A stretch of 64,000 bases of DNA from Thermococcus thioreducens (GTDB lineage Archaea > Methanobacteriota_B > Thermococci > Thermococcales > Thermococcaceae), in assembly GCF_002214545.1 (NCBI RefSeq), contig NZ_CP015105.1, positions 1,550,001 to 1,614,000 on the forward strand, read 5' to 3'. Positions 5,442 through 11,395 of the stretch are shown piece by piece; the stretch's first letter is position 1, and each line of letters begins with the position of its first letter. A program made the position numbers and the translations under genes. A model generated the notes under the pieces. It had not been told where the DNA came from, ran no database searches, and saw only the letters and a program-made list of their open reading frames with translations.

Positions 5442-7222
5442 CTTTCAATTCTCCTAGAGTCTTATTGCGGGGGGACGTTCCGTCCCCCACCCCCTCGAAC
5501 TTAAACGCATGAAACACCTAGGAATTCCCCTAGAGTCTTATTGCAACTCACCTAGGTTTTCGCCCCAGCCCATGCTACTAAGGCACTTTCAATTCTCCTA
5601 GAGTCTTATTGCAACAACTATCCTGCTGAGGACTATACAGACCACCCAAAGCCTTTCAATTCTCCTAGAGTCTTATTGCAACGCGACGATTAGACGGCTC
5701 ATGATTTCAACATTCGCCGCTTTCAATTCTCCTAGAGTCTTATTGCAACATGGAAAAGAATACACAAAGCTTGTGTTTGGTGAAGGCTTTCAATTCTCCT
5801 AGAGTCTTATTGCAACATGGCTGGCGGAGAAAGTGTCGAGCTTGTTAGTGTTTCTTTCAATTCTCCTAGAGTCTTATTGCAACCACTTTTACAGCGAAGA
5901 GCTTTCGCCAGCCGATCTAACTTTCAATTCTCCTAGAGTCTTATTGCAACCCGAAGGGCAGGGATGCTCTTCTTATCGCCAAGGTCTCTTTCAATTCTCC
6001 TAGAGTCTTATTGCAACAAGCTTGAGAAAATCGAAGAAGCGATAGAAGAGCTACACTTTCAATTCTCCTAGAGTCTTATTGCAACCCTTTCTCCTAACCT
6101 TAGTCTTTCTCCTCCTGACCATCTTTCAATTCTCCTAGAGTCTTATTGCAACTTTTCTCTGCCATTATCTGGAGTTGTTTTTTAACCTCTTTCAATTCTC
6201 CTAGAGTCTTATTGCAACCTGTCGAGGAAGTAGGCGATTTTAACCTCGTTCGGAACTTTCAATTCTCCTAGAGTCTTATTGCAACTCGAGCAACACGTCA
6301 TACCTGCCGTTAAGTATCTCCTTATCTTTCAATTCTCCTAGAGTCTTATTGCAACCAGCCGCTGTTCCTCGTTCATTCTCTCCCAGCCGACTTTCAATTC
6401 TCCTAGAGTCTTATTGCAACAGTTCAGTCACTGAACAGGGGCTAAATCCAGTAGAACTTTCAATTCTCCTAGAGTCTTATTGCAACCAGAGACACGGAGA
6501 AGGACTTTAATGGCGCTCATCACTTTCAATTCTCCTAGAGTCTTATTGCAACAAATTTGCTATGGGTGTTTTATTGAAGCTGAAAGTTAACTTTCAATTC
6601 TCCTAGAGTCTTATTGCAACGTAAACTACCTTATATAGCCTTCCCAGAACCGCCACCAGCTTTCAATTCTCCTAGAGTCTTATTGCAACTCGAGGAGCTG
6701 AACGGCAAAATAGACGTGACGCTGTCTTTCAATTCTCCTAGAGTCTTATTGCAACCCACATCAAGGAGGGAACCGCACCGGGGACACCTAAACTTTCAAT
6801 TCTCCTAGAGTCTTATTGCAACTGTGGAGGGCTTCTATAACGTCGCCCTTGATTTTGTCTTTCAATTCTCCTAGAGTCTTATTGCAACACTGAAAAAGGT
6901 AGATGGAAAAGGCTTTTTGTAATTACCTTTCAATTCTCCTAGAGTCTTATTGCAACCCTCCGTTAGCGCACTTCTCCTTAAAAAGTTTTCGGCTTTCAAT
7001 TCTCCTAGAGTCTTATTGCAACAGTGTTAGCATCAGCACCGAGGACGTGGGGAGGTTCCTTTCAATTCTCCTAGAGTCTTATTGCAACGAGCGAGGTTTG
7101 CGCTCTGGTTTCCAGTGTTTGTCTTCTTTCAATTCTCCTAGAGTCTTATTGCAACCTCAACACCGCTACAGCTCCAGTGACGTGGGACATAACTTTCAAT
7201 TCTCCTAGAGTCTTATTGCAAC
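5442..7222 (-). CRISPR. CRISPR array: 27 repeats of 30 bp, 26 spacers
   Basis: The 30-bp repeat begins CTTTCAATTCTCC and ends TCTTATTGCAAC on the plus strand. On the minus strand it starts GTTGCAATAAGAC and ends ATTGAAAG, the Thermococcales crRNA 5-prime tag, so transcription runs leftward. Repeats start at 5442, 5518, 5586, 5653, 5720, 5787, 5854, 5921, 5988, 6056, 6123, 6189, 6256, 6326, 6391, 6457, 6523, 6591, 6660, 6726, 6793, 6859, 6927, 6993, 7059, 7126 and 7193. The last 25 are identical. The two leftmost are degenerate: repeat 1 loses its terminal AAC, and repeat 2 has four substitutions. Spacers are 35-40 nt, except for the 46-nt first gap, which holds a GC hairpin. No cas genes lie in the window. 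Confidence 0.99.
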
Positions 7223-7677
7223 AGGCTGGAATTTCCTCCCATTTGCCCAATAAGCCTCTAAAACACCCCCAATATTTAAGCCTTTCTGGAAACCGATAGA
7301 AAAGGGACTCTCATAATGCCTGAAACGGTGAGGCCAGAGAGCTCGGAAGGGTTAAATGGGAGTCCAAGAGACTGCAAACGTTCAGTGAACAGAAAAGTCC
7401 ATGTGATTTCCCGAGCACCGTGATACGTCCAAACGCCGAAAACGGCGATATTAATATTTTAAAATCCAAAATATCCAGTTTTGACAAGTTGCCGGCGTTT
7501 TCGAGCCCTGCTCCTCCCCTGTCATGATTCTCGAAGAAATTTCGTTACAATCAATGCTTAAAATAGCGACAATAAGTTATACCCTCGGAACCATAAAAAG
7601 TGATTTCCCGAGAGGCTCACCTGCGGAGTTTTAGAAATTGCTCCCTCTGAGGAGAGATATCCGAAAAATAAATTCTC
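7223..7677 (-). promoter_or_regulatory. CRISPR leader region
   Basis: These 455 bases contain no convincing gene. They adjoin the perfect, presumably youngest, repeats and are richer in A+T than neighbouring genes. Read leftward, GAAAGG followed by CTTAAATATT (minus strand of 7271-7280) forms a BRE/TATA pair that would start transcription about 25 bases later, just before the first repeat. A 13-base word GTGATTTCCCGAG occurs twice (7403-7415 and 7600-7612), and a short palindrome GTTCAGTGAAC lies at 7380-7390. Leader identity follows from position and repeat polarity; its boundaries are not defined. Confidence 0.75.
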
Positions 7678-8238
7678 TCAGCGTGATAGAACGTCAAATC
7701 CAAGCTCCCTCAGCCTCCAGACTATCTCCAGCGGGAAGCCGACGACGTTGTAGTAGTCACCCCTGATCCACTCGACGAACAGGCCGGCCTTCCCCTGTAT
7801 GCCGTAAGCTCCGGCCTTGTCCATCGGCTCACCGGTTCTGACGTATGCCCATATCAACTCATCGTCCAGCTCGCGAAACTTGACTTCAGTGACTACCGCC
7901 CCAGATATTTCTTTACCCTCGTGGACTATGCAGTAGCCAGTTATAACCATGTGAACCCCTCCGCTCAGTGTTTTCAGCATCTCGTAAGCTTCTTCTTCGC
8001 TTCTCGGCTTCCCAAGGATTCTACCGTCTATGCTGACCACCGTATCGGCGCCGATGACGGTTCCGCCCACACGTTCGTAAACTTCCCATGCCTTCCTCCT
8101 GGCGAGTTCCAGGGCGTATTCTGTGGGATCCTCCAGGTTACACTCCTCACTCGCCCTGCTCGGAATAACCTCGAACCGGTCTATGAACCGGGCGAGTATC
8201 TCCCGCCTCCTCGGTGAGGCAGAGGCCAGAACCAGCAT
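7678..8238 (-). CDS. maf: Maf-like nucleotide pyrophosphatase
   Basis: Maf proteins hydrolyse non-canonical or modified nucleoside triphosphates and act as house-cleaning enzymes. The 186-residue sequence opens LVLASASPRRREIL, the Maf signature. It then has the S-R-A-S-E-E loop, an IGADTVVSIDGRILGKP motif, and a final GDYYNVVGFPL. Length is typical. The ribosome site GGAGGAGAG precedes the start, and a TTTTTTAA element lies about 25-33 bases upstream. Its promoter overlaps the guide-RNA gene at 8284-8345 on the opposite strand. Confidence 0.95.
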   Translation of the reverse strand: MLVLASASPRRREILARFIDRFEVIPSRASEECNLEDPTEYALELARRKAWEVYERVGGTVIGADTVVSIDGRILGKPRSEEEAYEMLKTLSGGVHMVITGYCIVHEGKEISGAVVTEVKFRELDDELIWAYVRTGEPMDKAGAYGIQGKAGLFVEWIRGDYYNVVGFPLEIVWRLRELGFDVLSR

Positions 8239-8283: not shown

Positions 8284-8345
8284 TCCGGCGATGAAGACAA
8301 TTTCGCTAGCTGATGCGTGATGAGTACCCTCGCAGCTGAGCCGTT
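8284..8345 (+). ncRNA. Box C/D guide RNA
   Basis: All four boxes occur in order with correct spacing: C-like GCGATGA (8288-8294), D-prime CTGA (8310-8313), C-prime GTGATGA (8317-8323) and D CTGA (8336-8339). GGC and GCC can close a terminal stem. The guide before D-prime (8295-8309) ends AATTTCGCTAG. Ten of its bases complement the universally conserved 23S rRNA segment UAGCGAAAUU. The fifth-base rule would place a ribose methyl at the C of that segment (E. coli C1934, numbered from memory). The second guide is GTACCCTCGCAG (8324-8335); I do not know its target. The gene fills the gap between maf and the small membrane operon. Confidence 0.82.
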
Positions 8346-8529
8346 ATGTGGGCCTTTTGAATCCAGTCCACTTTTCGATGCTTGAAACGAGTAGGTAAAC
8401 GAAGGCCAGTACCCAGAGGGAACTTCCCACCAGTAGGGCGTCTGAGCCAACAAAAAACACCGACAGATATGCAAATAGCCCTCCAATTGCCAGAGTCCAG
8501 AAAACCCTATTTTTCCATATCCTCACCAT
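8344..8529 (-). CDS. Small two-helix membrane protein (fifth of five)
   Basis: A 61-residue protein starting MVRIWKNRVFW. It has two hydrophobic segments (about residues 8-27 and 32-50) separated by a short VGSD turn, and a short basic tail. It overlaps the end of the preceding gene by 23 bases. The start at 8529 follows GGGGGAGAG. Unlike its four upstream neighbours it lacks an obvious coiled coil after the second helix. It closes a five-gene run of mini-membrane proteins. No known family was recognised. The longer open frame extending upstream is judged artefactual. Confidence 0.6.
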   Translation of the reverse strand: MVRIWKNRVFWTLAIGGLFAYLSVFFVGSDALLVGSSLWVLAFVYLLVSSIEKWTGFKRPT

Positions 8530-8755
8530 CGTTCTCTCCCCCATCGGACTCACCCAGGATGAACTCCAGTTCAAGGATTCTGTCTTCCAGACGCTCCAGC
8601 TCCCTCCAGATGGCGAGAAGCAGAAAGGCCAGAACAACGAAGGAGATACCAAGGTAGAAACCCACATCCCTCCTATGTTCTGGCTGTGCGTACATAAGCA
8701 GGGAGAGGGATACGAGAAGTGCAAAAAGCGCCGAAAGGTCCCTAACGAGCTTCAT
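8507..8755 (-). CDS. Small membrane protein with coiled-coil tail (fourth of five)
   Basis: An 82-residue protein beginning MKLVRDLSALFALLVSLSLL. It has two hydrophobic segments split by a charged turn (QPEHRRD), then a heptad-like helix (ELERLEDRILELEFILGE) and an acidic end. The start at 8755 is one base after the preceding stop codon. Topology matches the three genes before it: hairpin in the membrane with the coiled coil presumably cytoplasmic. Function is unknown. Confidence 0.72.
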   Translation of the reverse strand: MKLVRDLSALFALLVSLSLLMYAQPEHRRDVGFYLGISFVVLAFLLLAIWRELERLEDRILELEFILGESDGGENDGEDMEK

Positions 8756-8756
8756 C

Positions 8757-8981
8757 TCACCCCGCCTCCTCAAGCTCCTTCTTGAGCCTCTTTATTTCGC
8801 GGTTCAAAGTCGATATCTCTGATCTTAAGGTGCCTATCTCGTTCGCCACCCCGATTAAGGCCCAGCCGACCAGGGCAAAGAGCAGAGCCACCATGATGGC
8901 AAAGAACCAGCCTCCCGGAGATATTAGGAGGAATATCGAGAGAACGACTACCACAAAGCCCCTGGTGGAGACGTCAACCAT
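8757..8981 (-). CDS. Small membrane protein with coiled-coil tail (third of five)
   Basis: A 74-residue protein with two membrane segments (about residues 8-22 and 25-46) joined by SPGGW, then a strong amphipathic helix (IGTLRSEISTLNREIKRLKK) with leucine/isoleucine spacing of a coiled coil. It overlaps the preceding gene by eight bases, a translationally coupled arrangement. No family was recognised. Confidence 0.75.
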   Translation of the reverse strand: MVDVSTRGFVVVVLSIFLLISPGGWFFAIMVALLFALVGWALIGVANEIGTLRSEISTLNREIKRLKKELEEAG

Positions 8982-9207
8982 CGGCGGTGCCCCCAGAGGC
9001 TTTGAGAGACTCTATCTCCCGCCTCAGGAAATCGAGCTTCTCGTTGAACTCCCTCCGCATCTCGCCCATCTTCCAGACTACGAGTCCCATCACAAGGAGC
9101 ACCGGCCCAAGAATCAATCCAGCTCCCCCTGCGGTGAGCAGTATCACCAGGGCGACGCCCGTCAGTATGGCCCCTATAGCCTCAAGGATGTCGTACTCAC
9201 CCCCCAT
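8974..9207 (-). CDS. Small membrane protein with coiled-coil tail (second of five)
   Basis: A 77-residue protein. Two hydrophobic segments (about residues 10-26 and 29-45) are linked by a glycine-rich turn (TAGGAG). They are followed by KMGEMRREFNEKLDFLRREI, an amphipathic helix with heptad spacing. It overlaps the first gene of the operon by 11 bases. GGGGGGAC is the likely ribosome site. The architecture is the same as its neighbours, while the sequences have drifted apart. Confidence 0.75.
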   Translation of the reverse strand: MGGEYDILEAIGAILTGVALVILLTAGGAGLILGPVLLVMGLVVWKMGEMRREFNEKLDFLRREIESLKASGGTADG

Positions 9208-9433
9208 CTTTCGTGTCCCCCCGTTCGTCCCGGAGCGCCTTTAGCTCCTCCCTAATGCTTCTGACCTCACTGCTGAGCTCCCACATCTTGACGATGAGAA
9301 CGACAAGCAGAGCCAGGGGCAATAGCCCAAGGAAGAGCACCATCAGGCTTGGGCCCCCTGGGATAAAGGGCATGAATATCAGGAGTATAAAGAATATCGC
9401 CCCGAGGATTGCCAGTACGTCGGCGGCTCCCAC
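9197..9433 (-). CDS. Small membrane protein with coiled-coil tail (first of five)
   Basis: A 78-residue protein that opens the five-gene run. Hydrophobic segments at about residues 5-24 and 29-48 are joined by PGGPS. The tail WELSSEVRSIREELKALRDE is a predicted coiled coil. The stop codon lies inside the next gene. The intergenic stretch to the PIN-domain ATPase at 9480 is about 45 bases and that gene is also on the minus strand, so the run may be transcribed with it or from its own promoter. Function is unknown. Confidence 0.75.
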   Translation of the reverse strand: MGAADVLAILGAIFFILLIFMPFIPGGPSLMVLFLGLLPLALLVVLIVKMWELSSEVRSIREELKALRDERGDTKDGG

Positions 9434-9479
9434 TAGTTACCACCATAGAAAAGAAGAAGGCAAACTATAAAAAGTTTTC

Positions 9480-11288
9480 TCAGGCGGTCGCCCAGATTGG
9501 AATGCCAGCATCGAGGAGCCTTTTCAGCTCCTTCCCTATCGGCGTGCTCTTGCTGACCTTCACGAGCCCTTTCTTGCTCGGCGTTGCCGTAAAGACGTAC
9601 TGCTCGCCACCGTAGAACTTGAGGGGCCTCTTTGCATAGTCCGGGGAAACGCGGAGGACAATCGTTTTCTTCTTCTCCTCGACCTCAACCGGTATCTTCT
9701 CCTTGGGCCTCTCGGCTTCCCTCTCGGTGAAGCTCTTGACGTCGATGCTTATACCTATCCTCTTCTCCAGCTCCGTAATCCTCTTCCCCTTCTTGCCGAT
9801 TATCGCCGGGATGTCGAACTCGTCGGCGTATATTATCGCCTTGTGCGGGCTGACTATCTCGACTTCGGTGTAAACGTCAGGAAGGAACTTCTTTATCTCC
9901 TGCTTGAGCCTCTTCTCGGCGAGCTTCAAAGCGGGAGCCTTCTCCTCCTTCTTCACCGGGACGACACTTATCTCCTCGCCGTAGGTGTAAATCTCGTACT
10001 CCAGCTCGCCCGTCTCGAAATCGCGAACCTCTATCACCGGCCTCGCTAAATCTTCCTCCCTCATGCCGCTCGGCACCTTGACGAGGTACTCCAGCGTCAG
10101 GACCTTGGCGACCCTTCCGGCCTTGATGAAGATGACGGTATCGACTATCTGTGGTATCATTCCGAGCTCCACCCTTCCGATGAAGCGCTGGACTGCATCT
10201 ATCGGCTTCGTTGCGTGCACAACTCCTACCATACCCACTCCCGCCAGGCGGAGGTCAGCGTATATCTTAAAGTCGCTCGTCTTCCTCATCTCGTCGAATA
10301 TCGTGTAGTCCGGCCTCACCAGGAGGAGTATATCGCCGGTCTTCTCCATCCTGCCGTTTAGGGCTGTGTATTGCGTTATTTCCTCCCCAACCTGGAGGTC
10401 GCGCGGCTTTTCCATCGTCTTGACTATCCTTCCCATGCCCGCGTACCACTCGGCGAGGGCCTGGGCGAAGGTCGTCTTTCCTTCACCCGGCGCTCCGGCG
10501 ATGAGTATCCCCTCCGCCTTCTCCTTGAGGCGCTCCATGAGCTTCTCGCTCAGTTCGTAGTCCTCAATGCTGAGCTTCTTGACAGGCCTGACGGCGGTTA
10601 TCTCTATCCTGTCCGCGAAGGGCGGTTTGGCTATGACTATACGGTAGTTCCTGAGCTGAACGACAGTCGCCCCGGGCTCGTCGAGCTCTATGAAGCTCTC
10701 TGGATCGCGCTTTGCCCTCTCAACTATGTCGTCCGCTATCTCCTCCAGCTCCTCATCCGTGAGGATTTCGTCCCTGACCGGGACGAGCCTCCACTCTCCA
10801 GGTCTTCCCTTCTTTGCGAGGGGCCTCAGTCCGGCCTTCAGATGGACGCTCATCGTGGTCTCGTCGAAAAAGTCCTCCAGGCGGTGCCTGACATCCTTTC
10901 TGGCAGTTAAATATATCACGTCTATGCCCTTTGCTATCGCTATATCGCGCTGCACCTGGTCGCCGGTTATCAGAGTAGCCCCAAGTTCTTTGGCTATCTC
11001 CCGGACCATGCTGTCTATCTCCCCGGACTTGGCCCTTTTTATCTGCCAGAGCTCGGGCCTCTCCCCGTGGAACTCCAGGAGGATCCTGCCCTCGTTGGCC
11101 ATTTCTCTAAGCTTCTTGAGTTCCTCAAGTCCAACATGGCCTATCGCCTTTCCCTCGTTGGCCTGGTGCTCTATCTCGGCTATGACCGCCTCAGGTATGA
11201 TGACCTTAACATCACCATCGATACCCGCGAGGAACTGTGTAAGCCTACCGTCAACGATTACGCTCGTATCGGCAACAAACGTCCTCAT
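9480..11288 (-). CDS. PIN-domain / VirB11-like ATPase / KH-domain protein
   Basis: A three-part archaeal protein. The N-terminal PIN nuclease fold begins RTFVADTSVIVDG and contains TLITGDQVQRDIA. A type II/IV secretion-like ATPase follows with Walker A GAPGEGKTT near residue 265 and the DEMRKTSDF region near 320-330. A KH-like RNA-binding segment (AIIGKKGKRITELEKRIGI) lies near 480-500. A short C-terminal beta-rich segment closes it. I chose the ATG at 11288 (602 aa) because GAGGTGAGAGA sits directly before it; a GTG 13 codons upstream lacks this. The domain mix suggests an RNA-related NTPase rather than a pilus motor. Biological role is unknown. Confidence 0.9.
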   Translation of the reverse strand: MRTFVADTSVIVDGRLTQFLAGIDGDVKVIIPEAVIAEIEHQANEGKAIGHVGLEELKKLREMANEGRILLEFHGERPELWQIKRAKSGEIDSMVREIAKELGATLITGDQVQRDIAIAKGIDVIYLTARKDVRHRLEDFFDETTMSVHLKAGLRPLAKKGRPGEWRLVPVRDEILTDEELEEIADDIVERAKRDPESFIELDEPGATVVQLRNYRIVIAKPPFADRIEITAVRPVKKLSIEDYELSEKLMERLKEKAEGILIAGAPGEGKTTFAQALAEWYAGMGRIVKTMEKPRDLQVGEEITQYTALNGRMEKTGDILLLVRPDYTIFDEMRKTSDFKIYADLRLAGVGMVGVVHATKPIDAVQRFIGRVELGMIPQIVDTVIFIKAGRVAKVLTLEYLVKVPSGMREEDLARPVIEVRDFETGELEYEIYTYGEEISVVPVKKEEKAPALKLAEKRLKQEIKKFLPDVYTEVEIVSPHKAIIYADEFDIPAIIGKKGKRITELEKRIGISIDVKSFTEREAERPKEKIPVEVEEKKKTIVLRVSPDYAKRPLKFYGGEQYVFTATPSKKGLVKVSKSTPIGKELKRLLDAGIPIWATA

Positions 11289-11395
11289 TTCTCTCACCTC
11301 AGAAGATTCAAACTCTCCGTCCTCCACAATACTTCAAAGAGGTGCTATAACTAAAGGTTCATAAAGGTTTAGCCGAAAAGTAGATGGGTGGGACA

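Follow-up and report, generated by a model that had tools for sequence, protein, structure and literature searches.

Genes and features of the locus

The window, the whole stretch of 64,000 nucleotides that was analysed, covers positions 1550001-1614000 of an archaeal genome assembled as a single contig of 2.07 Mb. Five short reading frames, designated A to E, follow one another on its minus strand and lie exactly within positions 8344-9433 (Table 1). An initial annotation of this DNA described them as five consecutive genes with overlaps of 8, 11 and 23 bases, and the coordinates bear this out, with 11 bases shared by A and B, 8 by B and C, and 23 by D and E. A one-base gap separates C from D when the latter is read from its ATG start, so that three of the four junctions overlap. 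The overlapping starts suggest translational coupling within the array. That the frames are real genes is supported by their recurrence in relatives in one constant order and by median pairwise dN/dS values of 0.35 (A), 0.38 (B), 0.41 (C), 0.31 (D), and 0.47 (E), which indicate purifying selection on their amino-acid sequences.

Table 1. Genes and other features of the array locus (positions within the window).
Feature	Position	Strand	Description
ATPase, upstream flank	9480..11327	-	PIN, T2SSE/PilT-like, and KH matches
Putative TATA-type promoter element, GAAAACTTTTTATAGTTTG	9461..9479	-	Palindromic core AAACT-N6-AGTTT; directly behind the ATPase stop codon
Ribosome-binding-like element, GGTGGTAA	9437..9444	-	Conserved, before gene A
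Gene A	9197..9433	-	78 aa, GTG start; two predicted TM helices, coiled-coil tail
Gene B	8974..9207	-	77 aa; most widespread member; WK.GE motif
Gene C	8757..8981	-	74 aa; two predicted TM helices; strongest heptad pattern
Gene D	8507..8755	-	82 aa from ATG; an upstream TTG at 8773 would give 88 aa
Gene E	8344..8529	-	61 aa from ATG; two predicted TM helices, without a long tail here
C/D box guide RNA sR39	8287..8341	+	Rfam RF01122, 77 bits (gathering threshold 50)
Maf-like protein, downstream flank	7678..8238	-	Separated from E by sR39

The palindromic element upstream of A appears to act as a dedicated promoter of the array. Together with a pyrimidine-rich stretch and the ribosome-binding-like element, it is kept with some substitutions across carriers, whichever gene comes first, and its exact sequence occurs as a single copy in this genome. 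The idea of a wider regulon was rejected, as each of the eight further sites in this genome has three mismatches and resembles an ordinary TATA box. A covarying outer palindrome was likewise set aside, being seen in a few relatives only and not generally.

The ATPase gene is nearly universal. It is found in all well-assembled genomes of the genus, including those that carry no array genes. At the other end, sR39 lies between E and the Maf-like gene on the opposite strand, and forms the conserved right border of a variable slot. This guide RNA is better conserved than the Maf-like gene itself, beyond which lies a CRISPR array with CRISPR-DR6 type repeats (about 5480-7300 of the window). In several relatives (G003, G004, G027, G061, G069, G097, G100, G101, G105, and G109), the ATPase match falls into two parts, divided at residues 284/285, within open frames of approximately 1200 aa, an arrangement suggestive of an intein at the ATP-binding site.

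Predicted protein architecture

The two-helix hairpin design initially proposed for all five proteins agrees with hydropathy, which gives two hydrophobic segments in each, and with AlphaFold2 predictions made for single chains of B and D. The model of B has helices at residues 7-25 and 27-75 with a tight turn between them (pLDDT 84), while that of D has helices at residues 2-22 and 25-71 (pLDDT 73). In both, therefore, the second transmembrane helix (TM2) and the tail are predicted to form one continuous stalk helix. A coiled-coil tail had been ascribed to four of the five proteins, and this too is upheld. Hydrophobic residues occupy 6 of 7 a/d heptad positions in the tail of A, 6 of 7 in B, all 9 in C, and 5 of 6 in D, whereas the window copy of E has no real tail; the E orthologue of a sister genus carries a coiled-coil tail. 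In B, a nearly invariant WK.GE motif marks the point where TM2 meets the coil.

A profile of A-D matches designed coiled coils in the PDB over the tail, and searches of B and D against solved folds gave no significant match. Designed TMHC hairpins are two-TM hairpins in which a helix continues as a soluble coil, through which they oligomerise. One of these, TMHC4_R (6b85), is among the weak fold matches to D (E 7.2), and offers a geometric analogy only, not a homologue.

Relationships among the five proteins

In iterative profile searches, A-D came together as one family. As such a merger could reflect the composition of transmembrane segments and coils, permutation controls were run, in which each pair was compared with 60 segment-wise column-permuted profiles. 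Scores from hhalign of 44.5 for A-B, 39.2 for A-C, and 33.1 for B-C stood above control maxima of 23.3, 23.6, and 30.4, respectively. The C-D score was 27.0 against a control maximum of 23.6, and those of A-D and B-D lay at the edge of the background. No link between E and A-D was detected in profile-profile comparison with the same kind of control. The single family was thus rejected, and only A-B-C and, weakly, C-D were left. Judged by these profile comparisons, A, B, and C are diverged paralogues, homologous beyond the composition controls; D is probably a further paralogue, weakly linked through C; and E is a separate, unrelated protein. The earlier suggestion that all five are paralogues that diverged into distinct subunits consequently holds for A, B, and C, extends weakly to D, and fails for E.

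A further candidate member, a coiled-coil protein of 66-69 aa with one TM helix (L132:4593-4796 and homologues), was also considered. Its score against the A-D profile (E about 1e-4) reflects only composition background, and it was rejected. The gene for this protein occurs family-wide directly 3' of an ArsR-like regulator gene, and its product is a possible membrane partner of that regulator.

Distribution and decay in related genomes

The search covered 61 genomes of the genus and 33 others of the family, with one genome per species; contig ends may have influenced the gene-content calls of a few draft assemblies. Across the genus, the ATPase and Maf-like genes border the same slot, with a gap of ~70 to 1280 bases, and all strong matches to A-E are confined to this one locus. 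The slot may contain ABCDE, ABCD with a damaged E, ABC, AB, ABE, BC, B, CD, CDE, D, E or none of the genes. Most genomes of the genus lack most members, and many have none.

Profile matches to A-D occur in 27 of 115 genomes of the phylum, all from one genus. E is the only member to reach a sister genus, and is found in 19 of 94 family genomes. Within the genus, B is present in 22 genomes and intact orthologues of A in 12, with one additional remnant. B accompanies every intact A, so some partnership between the two is possible. Complete or near-complete sets occur in seven genomes. No homologues were found in the mobile elements searched, which were viral contigs (for B and E), phages (for B), and plasmids (for D). 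Of the co-occurrence in relatives that the initial annotation anticipated, the constant gene order is thus present, but relatives keep differing subsets, and the complete cluster is largely absent from near relatives.

Several loci carry damaged members. All that is left of the array in L047 is its promoter followed by the opening codons of A, a deletion scar. A is truncated in L037, C has lost its first helix by truncation in L008, D is frameshifted in L021, and E is broken in L058 and in two pieces in G110. These truncations, frameshifts, and the scar show ongoing, one-by-one gene loss. Parsimony on the ATPase tree gives 7-10 changes per gene and the Dollo model 11-19 losses, counts that are approximate because the branches of that tree are unevenly supported.

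In many relatives, among them another clade, the slot holds an unrelated gene whose product, a soluble protein of ~120 aa (MRYDVVIIPESFHKFDKHN...), has no match in Pfam. This gene is sometimes located 3' of C-D, D or E, and never occurs with A or B (loci L024-L026, L028, L030-L034, L036, L040, L042, L045, L046, L048, L050-L052, L059, and L060). In the slot of G078, a 57-aa frame with two TM helices (L033:357-530) is unmatched by the A-E profiles and is possibly a further diverged member.

Exchange of diverged versions between species

The most striking result of the analysis is the mosaicism of the array, which was studied in six genomes with similar arrays and by comparison with the immediate flanks only. 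Whichever two of these genomes are compared, the end of the ATPase gene, the promoter, and the guide-RNA spacer show identities of 84-96%. Against G084, the DNA identity of the window from A to E is 93, 87, 66, 77, and 46%; against G013, it is 59, 74, 87, 90, and 93%. The E gene of G084 is therefore only 46% identical to that of the window, although the flanks are 82-95% identical. In sliding windows, the nearest relative switches from G084 to G013 around the end of B and the start of C.

Tree tests give the same picture. By AU tests, a grouping of G000, G084, and G013 is rejected on the A data (p=1e-39) and one of G000 with G084 on the E data (p=5e-63), although G000 and G084 are united in the ATPase tree with a support of 0.996. 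Each gene exists as deeply diverged versions that have been reshuffled between species inside conserved flanks. Distances to nearest relatives are large, with dN of the array genes a few-fold to more than tenfold that of the adjacent ATPase. Synonymous sites also differ strongly between the diverged versions, which gives these the appearance of old sequences spread among genomes by recombination, and not of freshly accelerated ones.

Function and maintenance of the array

On balance, and with somewhat more confidence than doubt, A-E are best regarded as a position-fixed, recombining accessory array of individually dispensable, self-associating hairpins, and not as an obligate five-part complex. 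One promoter behind the ATPase gene would drive whichever subset of A-B-C-D-E a genome carries. Each product would comprise a first TM helix, a tight turn, and a long TM2 helix, which in A-D would be prolonged into a coiled-coil stalk that probably lies in the cytoplasm. Through its stalk, each protein would probably associate with copies of itself, and A, B, and C possibly also with one another. The proteins may work alone or in small subsets.

The initial annotation had read the overlaps as a sign of fixed stoichiometry, and the proteins as a hetero-oligomeric membrane scaffold. An obligate scaffold of this kind predicts both co-occurrence and a shared history, and both tests fail. Relatives carry subsets or none of the genes (B, E, D, BC, CD, AB, and ABE all persist), members are lost and exchanged singly, and neighbouring genes of one genome have incongruent histories, unlike tightly co-adapted subunits. 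Since E is also unrelated to the other members, the scaffold is very unlikely, despite the single operon with overlapping starts, the homology of A-C and weakly of D, the coiled-coil tails, and the seven genomes with complete or near-complete sets. A looser assembly, in which interchangeable A-D subunits combine as present and their composition tunes a membrane assembly, would accommodate the many, mostly contiguous subsets that are tolerated. It would also fit the common hairpin and stalk geometry, the heptad tails, and the homology of A, B, and C. Such a flexible mixed oligomer is nonetheless rather improbable, as E has no tail in the window and the swapping of highly diverged versions would need permissive interfaces. 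Least probable of all is that A-E are membrane partners that recruit the adjacent PIN/PilT-like ATPase to the membrane. The two are constantly adjacent and on the same strand, but the ATPase is conserved, and nearly universal, in genomes without any array gene, and the array apparently has its own promoter.

What maintains the variety of versions is a separate matter. One explanation is that these are neutral or weakly selected lineage-specific genes that decay by deletion, with divergence the product of relaxed constraint and incidental recombination. Frequent losses and pseudogenes, the fast dN relative to the ATPase, and the lack of most members in most genomes of the genus are all expected under such turnover, and the fast, lossy evolution of the array could be due to relaxed constraint instead of conflict. 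Values of dN/dS well below 1, the conserved promoter, and the re-distribution of divergent versions among species by exchange argue against it. Neutral decay is accordingly improbable, but a serious rival to the alternative that variety is maintained by membrane-level conflict, through virus exclusion or immunity to competitors' membrane toxins. Conflict is preferred here, tentatively and at well under an even chance, because variable, recombining membrane-protein loci of Thermococcales have been proposed to have such a role (PMC8416519, PMC4158269). More specifically, the array might be a recognition or exclusion system, in which ancient, divergent hairpin versions persist across species and are reshuffled by homologous recombination between the promoter and the guide-RNA border, each version with its own specificity for particular viruses, vesicles or competitors; this is a speculative proposal, and a doubtful one.

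If the reading of A-E as a recombining accessory array is correct, it would provide a compact, experimentally tractable case of archaea diversifying small membrane proteins in place, with one slot, one promoter, and a constant order in which the contents are exchanged. Several complete genomes of the genus are naturally without the array, which makes gain-of-function tests possible. The array also corrects a tempting inference, in which gene overlap is taken to imply a fixed complex.

Comparison with known systems

None of A-E matched Pfam, NCBIfam or PHROG above any curated cut-off; PHROG spanin matches to C cover TM2 and the coil only (E 2e-4). PADLOC-DB 2023 gave no defence-system match, with one weak score of ThsA to A (E=0.047), and no toxin, effector partner, mobile-element or defence gene was recognised at the array locus. 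The claim that no system like A-E has been described thus stands across the protein-family, defence, and fold libraries and the open-access literature.

Several known kinds of archaeal locus nevertheless share some of its features. The archaeal ‘dark matter islands’ (Makarova et al. 2014, PMC4158269) are narrowly distributed, fast-evolving clusters rich in small membrane proteins, for which roles in defence, conflict or secretion have been proposed. The array is similarly narrow, with A-D in one genus only, and similarly fast in its evolution. It differs in having a single position, a constant order, one promoter, and mosaic versions, and in that no mobile-element or defence gene accompanies it. 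VARTIG modules (PMC8416519) are hypervariable loci of Thermococcales in which a large immunoglobulin-domain protein at the operon start is followed by small membrane proteins, with shuffling and pseudogenes. Variable membrane-protein gene sets and shuffling are common to both, but the 5' neighbour of the array is the ATPase with its PIN, T2SSE-like, and KH matches, and there is no Ig-domain protein. Cassettes of the arCOG01996 type (PMC5898192), found in euryarchaea and among them in Thermococci, encode membrane proteins that are small, diverged, and specific to their lineages. Their members include COG1300/SpoIIM-like and Yip1-like proteins with 3-4 TM helices, and the array matched none of these. 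Fast-evolving archaeal membrane-protein loci are therefore a known kind of element, of which the fixed-slot, fixed-order, version-swapping form described here appears to be new.
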